This document shows, in pieces, positions 44,615-62,490 of a stretch of DNA of 64,000 bases. Position numbers and translations under genes: made by a program. A model generated the notes under the pieces. That model was not told where the DNA came from. It was given only the letters and a program-made list of their open reading frames with translations, and did no database searches. The stretch is taken from positions 1,922,001-1,986,000 of the forward strand of contig CP063848.1 of assembly GCA_015277795.1 (NCBI GenBank), in the 5' to 3' direction. The DNA is from Massilia sp. UMI-21. Its GTDB lineage: Bacteria; Pseudomonadota; Gammaproteobacteria; Burkholderiales; Burkholderiaceae_D. Within the stretch, counting starts at the first letter, position 1, and each line of letters begins with the position of its first letter.

Positions 44615-47600
44615 ATGTTCCTCTCTAATTTCAGTGTCAAGAAGCCGGTCGCGACGATCGTGCTGATCGTCGCGATGATGGCCATGGGCTTGCTGGCCCT
44701 GTCCAAGCTGAAGGTCAACCAGAACCCGGACGTCGAAGTGCCGATCATCGTGGTCGACATCCCGTACCCTGGCGCCTCGCCCGAGACCGCCGAGCGCGAG
44801 ATCACCAACCGCATCGAGAAGCAGATGCTGGCGATCCAGGGCGTTACCGAAGTCAATTCCAACTCCTACGAAGGCGGCGCCTCGATCTGGATGGAATTCG
44901 ACTTCGACCGCAACCTCATCGAAGCCTCGGACGACGTCCGCAACGCCATCGCTTCGGTGCGCTACAAGCTGCCGGTCGAGATGCGCGAACCGATCCTGCG
45001 CCGCATCGATCCGGCGTCCGAGCCGGTGATGTCGCTGGCGCTGTCTTCGAGCAGCCAGAGCCATGCGGAAATCTCGCGCTTCGCCGAAGACGAGCTGGCC
45101 GACCGCTTCCGCGCCATCGACGGCGTCTCGACCGTGAACGTGAACGGCGCCCTGCGCCGCGAGCTGTCGGTGCTCTTGCGTGCCGAGAAGCTGCGCGAGT
45201 ACAACGTGTCGGTGTCCGACGTGACCGCGGCCCTGCGCACCCAGAACACCAATGCGCCGGTGGGCAAGCTGCGCAGCGAACTGGACGAGAAGGGCATCCG
45301 CCTGGTCGGCCGCATCGAGCGTCCGGAAGATTTCTCGCAGGTGGTGGTCAAGCGTAACGGCGACCAGATCGTGCGCCTGAACCAGGTGGCCGAGGTCAAG
45401 GATGGCTACGCCGACATCAACAGCCTGTCGATGCGCAGCGGCAAACCGAACGTGGGTATCCAGGTGTCGCGTTCGCGCGACGCCTCGACCGTGTCGCTGG
45501 CCAAGAAAGTCCATGCGGTGGTCGCGGAAGTCAGCAAGGAACTGCCGCCAGGCACCAAGCTGGAAGTCGTGCGCGACGGCGGCGAAGACGCCCAGGCCAG
45601 CCTGAACAACGTGATCGAAGCCCTGGTGCTGGGCGCGATCCTGACCATCTTCGTGGTGTACGCCTTCCTGAACTCCTGGCGTTCGACCCTGATTACCGCG
45701 CTGTCGCTGCCGACCTCGGTGCTGGCCGCCTTCATCGCGGTCTGGCTGTGCGGCTTCACCCTGAACTTCATGACCCTGCTCGGCCTGTCGCTCGCGATCG
45801 GCGTGCTGATCGACGACGCGATCGTGGTGCGGGAAAACATCGTGCGCCACATGGAGCTCGGCTCCGACCGCCGTACCGCGGCCCTCGAAGGCACTGCCGA
45901 GATCGGCATGGCCGTGGCCGCCACCACCTTCTCGATCATGGCCGTGTTCATTCCGGTGGCCTTCATGCCGGGCATGGCCGGACAATGGTTCGGTCCGTTC
46001 GCGCTGACCGTGACCTGCTCGGTGATCGTGTCGCTGTTCATTTCCTTCACCCTCGACCCGATGCTGTCTGCCTACTGGGGCGACCCGCCGGGCCACCACC
46101 ATGCACCGAAGAAGGGCCTGGGCGCGGTACTGGACAGGTTCAACCGCTGGTTCGACCACCAGGCCGACCGCTACGGCAACGTGATCGCCTGGGCGCTGCA
46201 CCACCGCAAGTGGATGGCCGCGATCGCCGTGGCGACCCTGGTGGCCGCGATCGGCCTGCACGCCAAGTTCGGCGGTTCCAGCTTCCTGCCGAAGTCGGAC
46301 CAGGGCACCCTCATGGTCGAGATCCGCGTGCCGGCATCGTCGAGCCTGGAATATGCGCGCCGCAAGGTCGAAGCGGCAGCCGAGCTGGCCCGTTCGATCC
46401 CGGAAGTGAAAGACACCAACAGCAATGCCAACACCGGCGGCGGCCGTATCTACGTCGACATCGGCAAGCGCAGCGAGCGCAAGCGTAGCGGCAGCGACAT
46501 CGCGGTCGAACTGCGCGACAAGATCAGCCGCCTGGTCGGCGCGGAATACACCGTGATCGACGACCTGAACGGCGGCGGCAAGCCGGTCCAGATCCAGTTC
46601 ACCGGCTCCGACTCGCGCAAGCTGATGGACCTGACCACCGCCTACATGGAGAAACTGCGGCAGGTGCCGGGCGCCGTCGACGTCTCGCTGTCGGAACAGG
46701 ATCCGAAGAACGAGCTGCAGATCGTGCTCGACCGTGGCCTGGCCAATGCCATGGGCATCTCGATCAACGACGCCGCCCAGTCTCTGCGCGTGGCCTTCGC
46801 CGGCATCGAAGTGGGCGACTGGGTCGACCCGAGCAGCGAGACCCGCGACGTCGCCGTGCGCCTGCATCCGGACGACCGCGTCAATACCGGCAGCATCGAA
46901 CGCCTGCCGATCGCGGTGCAAGGCACCGGCATGATGGTGCCGCTCGAGCAGATCGCTACCATCACGATGGGCAAGGGCCCGGCCGCCATCCGCCACCGCG
47001 ACGGCGAGCGCATGATCACCGTCTCGGCCAATGCCCAGGGCCGTTCGCCGGGCGAAGTGACCGCCGACGCCATGAAGCTGGCCAAGAGCTTCGACTTCCC
47101 ACCGGGCTACGGCCTGAAGCTGGGCGGCGCCGGCCAGGACCAGCAGGAAGTGTTCAGCGCCATGGGCATCGCCCTGCTGTCGGGCATCGGCCTGATGTAC
47201 CTGATCCTGGTGATGCAGTTCGGCTCCTTCACCGCACCCCTGGGCGTGATGCTGTCGCTGCCGCTGTCCCTGATCGGCGTGGTCCTGGCCCTGCTGTTGA
47301 CGGGCAATACCCTTAACCTGATGAGCCTGATCGGCGTCATCATGCTGATGGGCCTGGTGGCGAAGAACGCGATCCTGCTGCTGGACGCCGCCCGCGCCCT
47401 GGAGAAAGAAGGCATGGACCGCGAGGACGCCCTGATGGCGGCCGGCCGCAAGCGTCTGCGTCCGATCCTGATGACGACCTTTGCGCTGATCGCGGGCATG
47501 TTCCCGGTGGCGCTGGCCCTGGGCGACGCCGGCCAGTTCTACCAGCCGCTGGCCATCGCGATCATCGGCGGTGTCATCACCTCGACCTTCCTGACCCTGC

Positions 47601-47821
47601 TGGTGGTGCCGAGCTTCTACGACAGCATCGAGATCGCCCGCGACCGCATGTTCGCGAAGTTCAATCGCCGCGCAGACCGCTTCAACCCGGCGCTGGCCTT
47701 CCTGATGACCTTCGTCGAAGCCATCCTGACCTTGACCTTCGTACGTCTGGTCTACCGCAGCATCATGCGCCTCGGCCGCTTCCTGAGCGGCCGCGGTCGC
47801 GCCAGGCCGCAACCGGTGTAA
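44615..47821 (+). CDS. RND multidrug-type efflux permease (HAE1 family)
   Basis: A 1068-residue inner-membrane proton antiporter with the 12-helix AcrB-like layout. The first helix is in VKKPVATIVLIVAMMAMGLLAL, and the first periplasmic loop begins after LSKLKVNQNPDVEVPIIVVDIPYPGASPE. The proton-relay helix 4 is GLSLAIGVLIDDAIVVRENIVRH, with the two Asp residues. The second half repeats the layout, with GLVAKNAILLLDAARALEKEGMDREDAL and LMTTFALIAGMFPVALALG. It forms a two-gene operon with the adaptor. Substrates cannot be predicted. Confidence 0.94.
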   Translation: MFLSNFSVKKPVATIVLIVAMMAMGLLALSKLKVNQNPDVEVPIIVVDIPYPGASPETAEREITNRIEKQMLAIQGVTEVNSNSYEGGASIWMEFDFDRNLIEASDDVRNAIASVRYKLPVEMREPILRRIDPASEPVMSLALSSSSQSHAEISRFAEDELADRFRAIDGVSTVNVNGALRRELSVLLRAEKLREYNVSVSDVTAALRTQNTNAPVGKLRSELDEKGIRLVGRIERPEDFSQVVVKRNGDQIVRLNQVAEVKDGYADINSLSMRSGKPNVGIQVSRSRDASTVSLAKKVHAVVAEVSKELPPGTKLEVVRDGGEDAQASLNNVIEALVLGAILTIFVVYAFLNSWRSTLITALSLPTSVLAAFIAVWLCGFTLNFMTLLGLSLAIGVLIDDAIVVRENIVRHMELGSDRRTAALEGTAEIGMAVAATTFSIMAVFIPVAFMPGMAGQWFGPFALTVTCSVIVSLFISFTLDPMLSAYWGDPPGHHHAPKKGLGAVLDRFNRWFDHQADRYGNVIAWALHHRKWMAAIAVATLVAAIGLHAKFGGSSFLPKSDQGTLMVEIRVPASSSLEYARRKVEAAAELARSIPEVKDTNSNANTGGGRIYVDIGKRSERKRSGSDIAVELRDKISRLVGAEYTVIDDLNGGGKPVQIQFTGSDSRKLMDLTTAYMEKLRQVPGAVDVSLSEQDPKNELQIVLDRGLANAMGISINDAAQSLRVAFAGIEVGDWVDPSSETRDVAVRLHPDDRVNTGSIERLPIAVQGTGMMVPLEQIATITMGKGPAAIRHRDGERMITVSANAQGRSPGEVTADAMKLAKSFDFPPGYGLKLGGAGQDQQEVFSAMGIALLSGIGLMYLILVMQFGSFTAPLGVMLSLPLSLIGVVLALLLTGNTLNLMSLIGVIMLMGLVAKNAILLLDAARALEKEGMDREDALMAAGRKRLRPILMTTFALIAGMFPVALALGDAGQFYQPLAIAIIGGVITSTFLTLLVVPSFYDSIEIARDRMFAKFNRRADRFNPALAFLMTFVEAILTLTFVRLVYRSIMRLGRFLSGRGRARPQPV

Positions 47822-47859
47822 GCCGATCGCTCAGGCACGAGGCCATCGCCTGCAGCAAG

Positions 47860-47885
47860 AGCCAGCCTTCGGGCTGGCTTTTTTT
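47860..47885 (+). terminator. Terminator of the RND operon; group IIC intron target
   Basis: Stem agccagcc/ggctggct (47860-47867 with 47872-47879), TTCG loop, then seven T. Transcription of the RND operon should stop here. The T-run is followed by CATG and directly by the first group II intron. Such terminator hairpins are the known 5'-exon target of class IIC introns. Confidence 0.92.
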
Positions 47886-47889
47886 CATG
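47884..47889 (+). other. IBS1, intron-binding site in the 5' exon
   Basis: TTCATG, the six bases just before the first intron, is the exact reverse complement of CATGAA in the intron EBS1 loop at 48069-48074. Pairing ends at the base before the intron's first G, which fixes the 5' splice site between 47889 and 47890. Confidence 0.8.
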
Positions 47890-48062
47890 GTGCGCCCAGC
47901 ATGGGCGCACTCCTGCGGGTGAAAGTCCTGCCGCGAGCTGACCACAGTGAGCGAAGTGAAGCGCAACTGCATGAGGGTAACCGAGTGTGGGAAGGAAGCG
48001 TGGATCGTAAATCATGAGCCGAGGAACACGAATCGCATAGAAGGCGTTGCCGATCAGGGCGA

Positions 48063-48078
48063 GCGGGCCATGAACCGC
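48063..48078 (+). other. EBS1 hairpin of the upstream intron
   Basis: GCGG (48063-48066) and CCGC (48075-48078) close an 8-nt loop that contains CATGAA (48069-48074). This is 180 nt into the intron, about where class IIC introns carry EBS1. It pairs perfectly with TTCATG before the intron. The same hairpin in the second copy is at 49920-49935. Confidence 0.75.
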
Positions 48079-48291
48079 AAAGCTCTTGTGGTCAAGGAGA
48101 GGTGGCGTAGATGCGGCGGTTGTGTGATGAAGGAGTGCGGCCCTTACCTGGGGACGCCCCGCCTTGTGCCTGAAAGGGCGACGAAAAAAAAATCGGAGCG
48201 GGGTCTCAGCAGAGGTCATAGTAGTTGGAGGTAGCGCTGGGAAGGCTCGACTCCGCCGACGAAGGACCGAACGAGTAGGAGTGAATCCGAT

Positions 48292-49659
48292 ATGTCGATG
48301 CAGAAGGCACAGCGTCAGATGCCCGCAAACGCGGGGCGGGAAGCCGTAGGGCAAGGTGAAGCCATGCTCGATGCTTTCAGCGACGAAGCGTTCTGCCCGC
48401 GGCATGCAACCGGAGGCACGGGGTCAGCGTTGCTGCAAGCGGCGCTGACGACAGAGAACCTGCGGCGGGCGTTCAAGCGTGTGCGTGCCAACAAGGGAGC
48501 GGCTGGCGTGGATGGACTGGACATTGACCAGACCTCGCGTCTGCTGGCAACCGAGTGGCCTCACATACGAGAACAACTGTTGGCAGGGACGTACCGGCCC
48601 AGTCCGGTACGTCGGGTGACGATTCCGAAGCCCGACGGTGGCGAGCGCGAGCTTGGCATCCCGACGGTGACGGATCGGCTGATCCAGCAAGCACTATTAC
48701 AGGTGCTGCAACCGATCCTTGATCCCACTTTCAGCGAGCATAGCTACGGCTTCCGACCGGGCAGGCGTGCGCAGGATGCGGTATTAGCCGCTCAGGCATA
48801 CGTCCAGTCCGGGCTGAGAATCGTGGTGGACGTGGACCTGTCGAAGTTCTTCGACCGGGTCAACCATGACATCCTGATCGACCGCTTGAAGAAACGCATC
48901 GACGACGCTGGAGTGATCCGGCTGGTCCGTGCCTATCTGAACAGCGGCATCATGGAGCATGGTGTAGTACAGGAACGGAACGAAGGAACGCCGCAAGGCG
49001 GTCCATTGAGTCCGCTGCTTGCCAACGTCATGCTCGATGAAGTGGACAAGGAACTGGAACGGCGCGGCCATCGCTTTGCGCGCTACGCCGACGACGCGAA
49101 CGTCTATGTTCGTAGCGTGCGTGCGGGCCAGCGGGTGATGAGGCTGCTGCGGCGCTGCTATGCCAGACTGCACCTCGTGGTCAACGAAGGCAAGAGCGCC
49201 GTGGCCAGCGTCTTTGGCCGCAAGTTCCTCGGCTACAGCCTGTGGGTGGGGCGTGGGGGCGAAGTCAAACGCAAGGTGGCGGAAAAGCCGTTGCAAGCGT
49301 TTAAACAACGCATCAGGGAGCTAACCCGCCGATCTGGTGGGCGTAGCATGCCGGATGTGGTGCAGGGACTTCGTTCCTATATGCTGGGTTGGAAAGGGTA
49401 CTTCCAGTTGGCGCAAACCCCAAAGGTATGGCGCGGACTCGATGAATGGTTGCGGCACAGGCTGCGGGCTATCCAGCTCAAGCACTGGAAGCGCGGAAGC
49501 ACCATGTATCGGGAGCTCCTTAAACTTGGGGCTTGGCCGTCGGCAGCGAGGCACGTAGCGGCGAACAGCCGCCGCTGGTGGCACAACAGCGATAGGTTAC
49601 TCAAAACAGTGATGACTATCGGCTATTTCGACCGACTCGGTGTACCTCGCCTGTCTTGA
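48292..49659 (+). CDS. ltrA: Group II intron reverse transcriptase/maturase, copy 1
   Basis: A 455-residue multifunctional protein that helps the intron RNA splice and reverse transcribes it at the insertion site. RT blocks: RVRANKGAAGVDGLDIDQ, PVRRVTIPKPDGGERELGIPTVTDRLIQQAL, YGFRPGRRAQDAV, VVDVDLSKFFDRVNHDIL, GTPQGGPLSPLLANVMLDEVD and the catalytic YADD at 265-268. The maturase X domain follows (MPDVVQGLRSYMLGWKGYFQLAQTPKVW). There is no C-terminal DNA-binding or HNH endonuclease domain, as in class IIC; the sequence closely resembles the Geobacillus GsI-IIC enzyme as I remember it. The start has AGGAGT upstream. Confidence 0.95.
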   Translation: MSMQKAQRQMPANAGREAVGQGEAMLDAFSDEAFCPRHATGGTGSALLQAALTTENLRRAFKRVRANKGAAGVDGLDIDQTSRLLATEWPHIREQLLAGTYRPSPVRRVTIPKPDGGERELGIPTVTDRLIQQALLQVLQPILDPTFSEHSYGFRPGRRAQDAVLAAQAYVQSGLRIVVDVDLSKFFDRVNHDILIDRLKKRIDDAGVIRLVRAYLNSGIMEHGVVQERNEGTPQGGPLSPLLANVMLDEVDKELERRGHRFARYADDANVYVRSVRAGQRVMRLLRRCYARLHLVVNEGKSAVASVFGRKFLGYSLWVGRGGEVKRKVAEKPLQAFKQRIRELTRRSGGRSMPDVVQGLRSYMLGWKGYFQLAQTPKVWRGLDEWLRHRLRAIQLKHWKRGSTMYRELLKLGAWPSAARHVAANSRRWWHNSDRLLKTVMTIGYFDRLGVPRLS

Positions 49660-49673
49660 CCTCAACTACTCGA

Positions 49674-49705
49674 ACCGCCCGGTGCGGACCCGCATGCCGG
49701 GTGGT
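49674..49705 (+). ncRNA. Domain V of the upstream intron ribozyme
   Basis: ACCGCCCGG (49674-49682) pairs with CCGGGTGGT (49697-49705), with one G-U; the inner TGC/GCA stem is capped by a short loop after a two-base bulge. The lower stem holds the CGC catalytic triad. It lies 14 nt after the maturase stop, as expected. The copy in the second intron is 1858 nt downstream. Confidence 0.8.
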
Positions 49706-49746
49706 GTGGCAGGGGAGCGGCCCTCAGGGCCGTCCCCTATGCCGAT

Positions 49747-51604
49747 GTGCGCCCAGCATGGGCGCACTCCTGCGGGTGAAAGTCCTGCCGCGAGCTGACC
49801 ACAGTGAGCGAAGTGAAGCGCAACTGCATGAGGGTAACCGAGTGTGGGAAGGAAGCGTGGATCGTAAATCATGAGCCGAGGAACACGAATCGCATAGAAG
49901 GCGTTGCCGATCAGGGCGAGCGGGCCATGAACCGCAAAGCTCTTGTGGTCAAGGAGAGGTGGCGTAGATGCGGCGGTTGTGTGATGAAGGAGTGCGGCCC
50001 TTACCTGGGGACGCCCCGCCTTGTGCCTGAAAGGGCGACGAAAAAAAAAATCGGAGCGGGGTCTCAGCAGAGGTCATAGTAGTTGGAGGTAGCGCTGGGA
50101 AGGCTCGACTCCGCCGACGAAGGACCGAACGAGTAGGAGTGAATCCGATATGTCGATGCAGAAGGCACAGCGTCAGATGCCCGCAAACGCGGGGCGGGAA
50201 GCCGTAGGGCAAGGTGAAGCCATGCTCGATGCTTTCAGCGACGAAGCGTTCTGCCCGCGGCATGCAACCGGAGGCACGGGGTCAGCGTTGCTGCAAGCGG
50301 CGCTGACGACAGAGAACCTGCGGCGGGCGTTCAAGCGTGTGCGTGCCAACAAGGGAGCGGCTGGCGTGGATGGACTGGACATTGACCAGACCTCGCGTCT
50401 GCTGGCAACCGAGTGGCCTCACATACGAGAACAACTGTTGGCAGGGACGTACCGGCCCAGTCCGGTACGTCGGGTGACGATTCCGAAGCCCGACGGTGGC
50501 GAGCGCGAGCTTGGCATCCCGACGGTGACGGATCGGCTGATCCAGCAAGCACTATTACAGGTGCTGCAACCGATCCTTGATCCCACTTTCAGCGAGCATA
50601 GCTACGGCTTCCGACCGGGCAGGCGTGCGCAGGATGCGGTATTAGCCGCTCAGGCATACGTCCAGTCCGGGCTGAGAATCGTGGTGGACGTGGACCTGTC
50701 GAAGTTCTTCGACCGGGTCAACCATGACATCCTGATCGACCGCTTGAAGAAACGCATCGACGACGCTGGAGTGATCCGGCTGGTCCGTGCCTATCTGAAC
50801 AGCGGCATCATGGAGCATGGTGTAGTACAGGAACGGAACGAAGGAACGCCGCAAGGCGGTCCATTGAGTCCGCTGCTTGCCAACGTCATGCTCGATGAAG
50901 TGGACAAGGAACTGGAACGGCGCGGCCATCGCTTTGCGCGCTACGCCGACGACGCGAACGTCTATGTTCGTAGCGTGCGTGCGGGCCAGCGGGTGATGAG
51001 GCTGCTGCGGCGCTGCTATGCCAGACTGCACCTCGTGGTCAACGAAGGCAAGAGCGCCGTGGCCAGCGTCTTTGGCCGCAAGTTCCTCGGCTACAGCCTG
51101 TGGGTGGGGCGTGGGGGCGAAGTCAAACGCAAGGTGGCGGAAAAGCCGTTGCAAGCGTTTAAACAACGCATCAGGGAGCTAACCCGCCGATCTGGTGGAC
51201 GTAGCATGCCGGATGTGGTGCAGGGACTTCGTTCCTATATGCTGGGTTGGAAAGGGTACTTCCAGTTGGCGCAAACCCCAAAGGTATGGCGCGGACTCGA
51301 TGAATGGTTGCGGCACAGGCTGCGGGCTATCCAGCTCAAGCACTGGAAGCGCGGAAGCACCATGTATCGGGAGCTCCTTAAACTTGGGGCTTGGCCGTCG
51401 GCAGCGAGGCACGTAGCGGCGAACAGCCGCCGCTGGTGGCACAACAGCGATAGGTTACTCAAAACAGTGATGACTATCGGCTATTTCGACCGACTCGGTG
51501 TACCTCGCCTGTCTTGACCTCAACTACTCGAACCGCCCGGTGCGGACCCGCATGCCGGGTGGTGTGGCAGGGGAGCGGCCCTCAGGGCCGTCCCCTATGC
51601 CGAT
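49747..51604 (+). mobile_element. Group IIC intron, downstream copy
   Basis: A 1858-nt second copy, joined head to tail to the first with no spacer. I see two differences between the copies: an A-tract of ten instead of nine in the region before the maturase (at 50041), and a silent G-to-A change at 51199 (49341 in copy 1). Its immediate 5' neighbour is GCCGAT, the 3' end of copy 1, which does not pair with its own EBS1 loop (CATGAA at 49926-49931). The 3' exon starts at 51605 with GCGCCGCG. Confidence 0.92.
50150..51517 (+). CDS. ltrA: Group II intron reverse transcriptase/maturase, copy 2
   Basis: 455 residues, identical in sequence to the maturase of copy 1: the one base difference inside the gene, at 51199, is synonymous in a Gly codon. 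All RT blocks and YADD are intact, so both copies should make active protein. Because the two genes are identical, either protein could serve either intron RNA. Confidence 0.95.
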   Translation: MSMQKAQRQMPANAGREAVGQGEAMLDAFSDEAFCPRHATGGTGSALLQAALTTENLRRAFKRVRANKGAAGVDGLDIDQTSRLLATEWPHIREQLLAGTYRPSPVRRVTIPKPDGGERELGIPTVTDRLIQQALLQVLQPILDPTFSEHSYGFRPGRRAQDAVLAAQAYVQSGLRIVVDVDLSKFFDRVNHDILIDRLKKRIDDAGVIRLVRAYLNSGIMEHGVVQERNEGTPQGGPLSPLLANVMLDEVDKELERRGHRFARYADDANVYVRSVRAGQRVMRLLRRCYARLHLVVNEGKSAVASVFGRKFLGYSLWVGRGGEVKRKVAEKPLQAFKQRIRELTRRSGGRSMPDVVQGLRSYMLGWKGYFQLAQTPKVWRGLDEWLRHRLRAIQLKHWKRGSTMYRELLKLGAWPSAARHVAANSRRWWHNSDRLLKTVMTIGYFDRLGVPRLS

Positions 51605-51790
51605 GCGCCGCGCGGCCGGCGCCGGCGCGGACGATCGCTTGCGGTCTGGCAGCCGGCCCTGGCGCGGAATCGGGTCCACGCAAAATAGTCAAATTTCCTT
51701 GTGCGTTAGGCAATGTTCAAGCGCCTCGCTGCCTTAAAATACGTGGATTGCTTTTCAGCCTCCACTCTCCTTCCTTCGAAAGCCATTTTC

Positions 51791-54700
51791 ATGCGTGAAA
51801 CGTCCACGGCGCCAGGCGGCTCCCAATCCGACCTCAACTGGCTGGCCGGCGGCGGCGAGATGGGCGCCCTGATCCGCGCGATGGACTGGTCGGCGACGCC
51901 CCTGGGGCCGCTGGAGCGCTGGCCGCAGAGCCTGCGCACCACGGTCAGCCTGTGCCTGTCGTCGACCTTCCCGATCCTGGTGTGCTGGGGCGAGCAGGAC
52001 ATCCAGATCTACAACGACGCCTACCGGCCGATCTGCGGCGACCTGCACCCGGCGTCGATGGGAGGCGCGTTCAAGAAGGTGTGGGCGAGCGCGCTGCCGG
52101 TGGTGGGCGATGCCTTCGACCGCGCGCACCAGGGAGAAGGCGCCTATATCCGCGACCAGCGCATGTTCCTGGACCGCCTCGGCTATCTCGAAGAGGCCTT
52201 CATGACGTTTTCGTTCTCGCCGATCCGCGACGAGTCGGGCGCGGTGGGCGGGGTGTTCCACCCGATTACCGAGACCACGGCCCAGGTGCTGGGCGCGCGC
52301 CGCACGCGCGGGCTGCGCGAATTGAGCGAGGCGCTGGCCGCCGCCCGCACCGCCGGCGACATCGGCCAGCAGCTCGAGGCGCACCATGAAGCCCTGGCCC
52401 ACGACCTGTCCTTCGTCCTGTTCTACCAGCGCGATGCCGCCAGCGGCCGGCTGCTGCTGCGCGGCCGCGCCGGCATCGAAGGGCATTGCGCGCTGGCGCC
52501 GAGCACGGTGGCGCCCGACGATGCCGTCTGGCCGTTCGCGGCTGCCGGGGCGGCCCGCAGCGCGCAGCGCGTCGACGGCCTGGCCGCGCGCTTCGGCGGC
52601 ACGCGTTGCGGCACCTACGACGATCCGCCGGACTCGGCGATGGTGCTGCCGGTCCTGACGCCCGGCCACCAGGAACCCTACGGCTACCTGGTGGCCGGCG
52701 CCAGCATCCGGCGCGCCCTCGATGCCGACTACCTGAACTTCTTCGAGCTGCTCGGCGCCGCGGTCGGCACCGCGGTCGGCAACGTCACCGCCTACGAGCA
52801 GGAACAGCGCCGCGCCGAGGAGCTGGCCAAGATCGACCGCGCCAAGACCGCTTTCTTCTCGAATGTGTCGCACGAATTCCGCACCCCGCTGACCCTGATC
52901 CTGGGGCCGCTCGAGGACGTCCTGGCCGACGGCGCCGAACCGCTCGCACCGAGCCAGCGCCGGCGCGTCGAACTGACCCACCGTAACGCGCTGCGCCTGC
53001 TCAAGCTGGTCAATTCGCTGCTCGACTTCTCGCGCATCGAGGCGGGCCGGGTCCAGGCCAGCTACCAGCCGGTGGACCTGGCCCACCTGACGACCGAACT
53101 CGCGTCCGTGTTCGAGTCGGCGATGGCGCGCGGCGGCCTGGCCTTCGAGGTGCGTGCGGACGAGCTGGGCGAGCCGGTGTACGTCGACCGCGACATGTGG
53201 GAAAAGATCGTCTTCAACCTGCTGTCGAACGCCTTCAAGTTCACGCTCACGGGCGCGGTCACGGTGCGCCTGGCGCGCCATGGCGCGGGCGCCTCGCAGG
53301 TGGCACGGCTGTCGGTGAGCGACACCGGCATCGGCATCCCGGCGCACGAGCTGCCGCGCGTGTTCGAGCGCTTCCACCGCATCGAAGGCGCGGCCGGACG
53401 CACCCACGAAGGCACCGGCATCGGGCTGGCCCTGATGCAGGAGCTGGTATGGCTGCACGGCGGCAGCATCGCGGTGCACAGCACGGAGGGCGAGGGCACC
53501 CGCTTCGACGTGGACATCCCGTTCGGCTGCGCGCACCTGCCGGAAGCGCGGGTGCTGGCGGCGCCGGCGCCGGCCCGGGAAGCGTCTGGCCGCGGCAGCG
53601 CCGCCTTCGTCGAGGAGGCGCTGCGCTGGCTGCCGGACGAGGCCGAAGGCGCGGACGGCATCGCGTCCGAAGGCGCGGATCATATCGGCGCCGATATTGC
53701 GGCCACCGGCGCCGCGGCGCGGCCGCGCATCCTGGTCGCCGACGACAACAACGACATGCGGGCCTACCTCAAGTCGCTGCTCGCGCCGTATGCCGAGGTG
53801 GTCTCATGTGCCGACGGCGAAGCCGCGTTCGCACTGCTGGAACGCGACCCGCCGGACCTGCTGCTCAGTGATGTCATGATGCCGCACCTGGACGGCTTCG
53901 GCCTGCTGGCGCGGATCCGCGCCAGCGCCGCCCTGCGCCAGCTGCCGGTGATCCTGCTGTCGGCGCGCGCCGGCGAGGAAGCCAGGATCGAGGGCTTGCA
54001 GGCCGGCGCCGACGACTACCTGGTCAAGCCTTTCGCGGCGAGCGAACTGCTGGCGCGCGTGCGGGGGCAGGTGACGCTGGCGCGCGATCGCGGCCGCGTG
54101 CACGCCGACGCGGCCCGGCGCGAGGCCTATTTCCGCGCGCTGGTCGACGCTTCGCCTGCGATGCTCTGGACCACCGACGCGGACGAGCAGTGCACCTACC
54201 TGAGCCAGCGCTGGTACGACTTCACCGGACGCCGGATCGAGCAGGACCTGGGCCGCGGCTGGCTCGAGAACGTGCATCCGGAGGATTTGCAGCGCACCGT
54301 GGATGCCTACATCGAGTCGGCGGCGGCGCGGGTGCCGTTTTCCATCGACTTCCGGCTGCGCCGCCGCGACGGCGTGTACCGCTGGGTGATCGACTCGGGC
54401 GTGCCGCGCGTCGACGAGGCGGGGCGTCCGAACGGCTATGTCGGCACCGTGATCGATATCCACGAGCGCAAGATCCTGCAGCGGCGCTTCGAACGCGTGG
54501 CGCAGGCCGGCAGCATCGGGGTCTGGTACGCGGACGCGCCCTTCGAGCACTTCCGCCTGAACCGCGAAATGGCGGCCCAGTTCGAGCTCGACGGGCAGGG
54601 ACAGGCGACGATCGCCCAGCTGGCGCAGGCGGTCGATGCGGCCGACCGCGGCCAGTTCGAGGCGCGCTTGCGCCAGGCGCTGCAGCACGGCAGCATGCTC

Positions 54701-62430: not shown

Positions 62431-62463
62431 AAGGCAGCGCCCTGGACGGCCGCTGCCTTTTTT
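62431..62463 (+). terminator. Terminator of the chemoreceptor gene
   Basis: Stem aaggcagcg/cgctgcctt (62431-62439 with 62451-62459), then a T-run to 62463. It is followed by CATG, so the sequence after the stem ends in TTCATG, as at the intron-occupied terminator at 47.9 kb. Confidence 0.85.
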
Positions 62464-62490
62464 CATGCGCGGCGCTGGGCGCCGCCCGCC

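Follow-up and report, generated by a model that had tools for sequence, protein, structure and literature searches.

Two nearly identical group IIC introns stand head to tail behind a single terminator in the genome of Massilia sp. UMI-21. We read the pair as a tandem of mobile introns produced by two separate events at this one terminator, with a probability of roughly 0.83, and the event we infer is retrohoming. The window analyzed here, a stretch of 64,000 nucleotides, corresponds to positions 1922001-1986000 of a one-contig, 5,302,561-bp genome (CP063848.1, GCA_015277795.1) rated 100% complete. Three such arrays within one complete genome make the stacking testable.

Anatomy of the tandem and identity of the introns

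The tandem, its upstream neighbor, and the motifs described below all lie on the + strand. The neighbor is an open reading frame (44615..47821) for an RND-type efflux permease, whose product is matched by NCBIfam RND permease models, each under its curated cut-off. The terminator behind this gene, with its stem-loop at 47860..47879 and T-run at 47879-47885, is the target of the intron pair, and it leads into TTCATG (47884..47889), the 5′ exon end of the first intron and its candidate IBS1. Copy 1 follows directly (47890..49746, 1857 nt, with G1452) and is joined to copy 2 (49747..51604, 1858 nt, with A1452 and a tract of ten A), so that the junction at 49746..49747 reads CCGAT/GTGCG with no spacer. 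The 3′ flank (51605..51790) lies ahead of a hybrid histidine kinase gene, which starts at 51713 in the list of open reading frames or at an in-frame ATG at 51791.

An earlier note on this DNA had described two abutting group IIC introns after a terminator and TTCATG, differing only by an A9/A10 tract and one silent G/A change, and both coordinates and sequence bear this out. The global alignment that it had proposed, 47890-49746 against 49747-51604, showed the copies to differ at two places and no others: an additional A at intron position 294, in the A9/A10 tract, and a G/A exchange at intron position 1452 (window 49341/51199), which falls on codon position 3 and is silent. The assignment to group IIC is supported as well. 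In the covariance-model check that had been suggested for both copies, the ribozyme core of each was matched by Rfam RF02001 at 104.6 bits (gathering score 32), and RF01998 scored 31.1 and 30.2, short of its gathering score of 35.

Group II introns begin with GUGYG and end with AY. All ten near-identical copies in this genome, referred to here as young copies and distributed over 8 sites, begin GTGCG and finish CCGAT, giving GTGCG...AT ends at 8 sites with unrelated sequence beyond them. Because copies elsewhere share the same terminal bases, the absence of a spacer holds whatever model is used to place the intron ends. Near the 3′ end of copy 1, predicted folds give a putative domain 5 (49674..49705, named from its position) and a putative domain 6 (49707..49744) with a bulged, unpaired A at 49739, the eighth base from the intron end; the segment 49708-49746 has a folding z of -4.49. 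The Rfam D5/D6 families were absent from the E<=1 match list for the introns.

Both maturase/reverse transcriptase frames (48292..49659 in copy 1, 455 aa with YADD; 50150..51517 in copy 2) are intact and encode identical proteins, in keeping with the earlier claim of two intact maturases. TIGR04416 matches at 398.7 bits (cut-off 300), and Pfam finds RVT_1 and GIIM only, that is, reverse transcriptase and maturase domains with no endonuclease domain. ARAGORN also calls a tRNA-Cys within each frame (48401-48490 and 50259-50348); the Rfam tRNA model supports neither call at its gathering score, and both are probably false. Far from the tandem, an nhaA-I riboswitch candidate (46.3 bits) lies on the - strand at 2097-2150.

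Copies in the genome and order of arrival

A genome search for more copies, another of the checks suggested beforehand, returned 15 places: the ten young copies at ~100% identity, one copy at 93%, two at 72-74%, and two fragments. A second direct tandem was found at 2701688-2703544 and 2703545-2705401. In a third array, which is older and degraded, a 93% copy that keeps an intact frame stands upstream and is joined to a decayed ~75% remnant that lacks its first base (G1) at the joint.

Six positions vary among the ten young copies, and the mates differ at 1-2 positions in both young tandems. Copy 1 of the window has identical counterparts at two other sites, and it is identical to the downstream copy of the second tandem. 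The window tandem has G1452 upstream and A1452 downstream; A1452 is also present at L008 and L010, and the A10 tract of copy 2 occurs in no other copy of this genome. In the second tandem, G817 is confined to the upstream mate and is common to L005, L006, and L007, and the downstream mate carries C817, as do 8 of 8 outgroup copies; on this comparison, G817 is the derived state. At position 1452, the outgroups show A in the four copies of genome G060, which are nearest, G in L011 (the third array), L012, and L013, and T in L017. At position 438, T is found in L010, the four G060 copies, and L011, and A in L012, L013, and L017. We read A1452 as ancestral, a parsimony judgement on few sites. These states favor a derived upstream mate in both young tandems, with the polarity of each resting on one SNP because the mates differ at 1-2 positions only. 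With 10 copies present, gene conversion could reshuffle the SNPs, and a late insertion may also come from an older haplotype.

Nine arrays were examined for order: the three here, L043 and L045-L048 from other genomes, and one on a Polaromonas plasmid (L049). Four of them, L045 and the three of this genome, are informative, and in 4 of 4 it is the upstream copy that looks younger or is intact. L046 is compatible with upstream addition without fixing the order, contig or record ends truncate L043, L047, and L048, and both copies of L049 are intact. Taken as sequence evidence, this suggests that the second copy landed ahead of the first, between the terminator and the resident. The earlier note had inferred a recent double insertion from the low divergence of the mates. 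Its double insertion is upheld, by differing states that are common to other sites and by the derived state lying upstream in both young tandems. Low divergence is insufficient as an argument, because all 10 young copies are equally similar.

The flank at 47300-47889 matches 61 of 62 genus genomes, our own included. Among the 30 flank loci that were read, an intron starts at the site in two, our own genome and G060. The G060 copy was considered as an ortholog and rejected: it shows 136 alignment differences from the window copies vs 69-70 from the three other G060 copies, and its insertion is one base off. Because it is nearer to the copies of its own genome and is displaced by one base, we read the window terminator as having been hit separately in two species. 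G003 has the same hairpin and TTTTTTCATG with no intron, G053 has the hairpin and T-run with no intron, and some of the 30 relatives have a sequence resembling the start of the kinase gene downstream of the same permease gene. The G042 contig (L067) stops within the T-run of the orthologous terminator and is for that reason uninformative on occupancy; a repeat such as an intron could have caused the break.

Target recognition, proposed route, and competing explanations

The 41-nt segment upstream of copy 1 folds at -19.1 kcal/mol. All eight young insertions lie behind a terminator-like hairpin, with upstream folds of -14.4 kcal/mol or better, and such a hairpin also precedes L012 and L013. At L011 it is weak (-2.8 kcal/mol), and the exon there forms 4 of 6 pairs with the candidate EBS1. 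This candidate, CATGAG, was selected by complementarity to IBS1 at 47970..47975 in copy 1 and located by position at 49827..49832 in copy 2. TTCATG forms 6 of 6 in-register pairs with it. Across the eight young sites the count is 5-6 of 6, as it is for the three G060 sites that were tested; 2.5% of all six-mers would reach at least 5. The six bases ahead of the internal junction form 2 of 6, which is chance level. The in-register test works for the window's own subfamily only: the Zoogloea array (L046) scores 3 of 6 at the exon and 3 of 6 at the junction, the Verrucomicrobia and Polaromonas exons form 0 of 6, and exon and junction are not told apart by unconstrained EBS1 duplex energies. PMC7923331 gives class C EBS1 pairing as 3-4 bp. 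Within the window, an unoccupied hairpin with TTTTTTCATG (62459-62467) would be a good free target for this intron.

We propose that, on the 5′ side, the intron RNP would recognize the hairpin and a short IBS1 (TTCATG). It would demand little of the 3′ side, such that an occupied site would still be a target. The base following the intron is T at four sites, C at two, and G at two; a resident's G1 should therefore be an acceptable neighbor, and insertion need not consume the target. The newcomer would reverse-splice between TTCATG and the resident's G1 and push the resident downstream. Arrays would grow on their upstream side, and for that reason the upstream copy would be the younger. In RNA, copy 1 would have to splice first because the bases ahead of copy 2 mismatch EBS1, and its removal would set TTCATG directly ahead of copy 2; this order of splicing is a prediction of the pairing. 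We lean slightly toward a broader statement, that hairpin-targeted IIC introns may have no target-site immunity, with each insertion rebuilding the target upstream, ordered arrays recording their history, and inner copies able to splice only once the copies ahead of them have gone. The usual view is that a mobile intron splits its target by inserting. If IIC introns do leave it unsplit, they could pile up at few terminators, the pile would preserve a readable order of arrival, and its repeated copies would be substrates for recombination and ordered splicing.

How often a site should be hit twice can be estimated from the number of good targets. The genome contains 62 instances of TTTTTCATG (control 10) and 132 of TTTTTYRTG (control 54); 3 of 8 young sites fit the wider TTTTTYRTG pattern, and the two sites that were hit twice both belong to the TTTTTCATG set. 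With ten insertions into 62-132 equal sites, 0.3-0.7 coincident pairs are expected, or ~0.1 with four insertions into 62 sites, and two were observed; the numbers are small, and hairpin presence was checked at part of the 62-132 motif sites. Double hits look commoner than uniform use of the best sites predicts, and hotter sites, or another process contributing, may lie behind the excess.

One such process would be homologous recombination into a resident single copy, either by a head-to-tail circle of the intron (its RNA copied to DNA) or by a fragment of a donor. It would yield the exact CCGAT/GTGCG joint without a second retrohoming, ten near-identical copies are at hand as donors, double hits seem over-frequent, and head-to-tail circles of Ll.LtrB are described in PMC6248898. 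It explains poorly, however, the third array, where a 93% copy meets a ~75% copy without G1, the TG that separates two of the Zoogloea copies, and the pairing of two different introns in Polaromonas. We regard it as unlikely. Still less likely is an assembly duplication of this ten-copy repeat. Identical multi-copy repeats are classic assembly traps, and a homopolymer error could account for A9/A10, but the genome is a single contig rated complete, two independent tandems each hold mates of different haplotype, and the same arrangement recurs in unrelated records. Local tandem duplication of one inserted copy, by slippage or unequal exchange, would fit mates identical save two positions but is scarcely credible, as other sites share the states by which mates differ at 1452 and 817, and no flank sequence is duplicated along with the copies.

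Two further readings were also rejected. Copy 2 could have inserted behind copy 1 by using the domain 6 hairpin, which folds well, but the 2 of 6 pairing there is that of chance, and the polarity runs the opposite way. Transposition of the pair as a unit is rejected because the two tandems hold different haplotype pairs.

Arrays elsewhere and relation to known systems

Tandem class IIC introns with direct junctions had been called uncommon, and surveys of other genomes agree. Across 84,980 species genomes, the exact junction pattern occurs at 6 loci (L043-L048), and five of these (L043, L045-L048) are supported by intron sequence flanking the joint to left and right, with only 39-40 nt of the second copy within the L048 record; L044 was dropped, having no maturase and no blastn match. 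A verified junction was found in 1 of 399 order-level genomes and 1 of 371 family-level genomes, in overlapping samples, and in both cases it was our own genome. A junction-like match at family level (G669) was a chance match with no intron there. The 5′ end motif is present in 16 of the 399 order-level genomes, with 65 ends in total. G082 accounts for 37 of these, but 6 of its 10 listed places are no more than 165 bases from the start of a contig, so that arrays there would not be visible. Such patterns miss diverged joints, even that of our own third array, and short-read assemblies.

The Verrucomicrobia array (L045) has a complete upstream copy and a 95% identical downstream copy whose match ends at 1133 nt. 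By eye, L045 1-334, ahead of this tandem, looks like the terminal part of an RND permease gene, which is probably a coincidence. The Zoogloea array (L046) is a triple, with two identical 653-nt ORF-less copies, TG, and then a full copy; the TG between copies b and c fits insertion into the resident's 5′ exon.

Among plasmids, 343 records match the junction query and 37 cover at least 80% of it; among the 40 matches listed, Polaromonas sp. JS666 plasmid 2 (NC_007950.1) alone covers the joint in one unbroken piece. Its two introns are 66-80% identical in their aligned parts. The junction pattern was found in 0 viral contigs, the junction query had no match in phages, and neither 47800-47889 in plasmids nor 47860-47889 in phages had a match. 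In E. coli, at least 80% of the junction query is covered at one place in 26 of 5,426 genomes; for the 10 of these listed the match is in two pieces and 484 bp long, and inspection of one showed an ORF-less intron. Some part of the query is matched in 1,506 of the 5,426 E. coli genomes.

Twintrons are introns nested within introns. Like them, the window site holds more than one intron in one place; unlike them, both copies are complete and abutting, and neither interrupts the other. In its 5′ GTGCG, RF02001 match, reverse transcriptase and maturase without endonuclease, and use of a hairpin plus a short IBS1, the window intron resembles the group IIC introns behind Rho-independent terminators, but its site is doubly occupied and the inner copy has no local IBS1. 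The Polaromonas pair likewise shares the CCGAT/GTGCG joint, and each of its introns has a maturase gene with a long open frame, but they are two different introns and lie behind a GGAGGATGT hairpin beside a TnpB gene instead of a terminator with a T-run. The elements themselves are of an ordinary, known kind, and their stacking and polarity are a modest novelty. Class C introns are said to target terminators (PMC3522654) or terminators and attC (PMC7923331), and the parts seen of the literature on tandem, head-to-tail, and multiple introns yielded no description of tandem class C introns; earlier reports in subscription journals are possible.

Introns of a related IIC lineage begin directly after GGAGGATGT behind a hairpin at L049 4257, L045 335, and L085 2502. 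The last is an ORF-less intron of ~483 nt with both ends (L085 2502-2984, NZ_CP021729.1) on an IncY plasmid of E. coli that also carries phage-like genes. The Polaromonas intron starts ~60 bp after the TnpB gene, and CAA follows the introns both there and in L085. We take the GGAGGATGT hairpin next to TnpB, with its CAA context, to be an IS200/IS605-type right end, and introns at GGAGGATGT sites may use transposon-end hairpins as targets.
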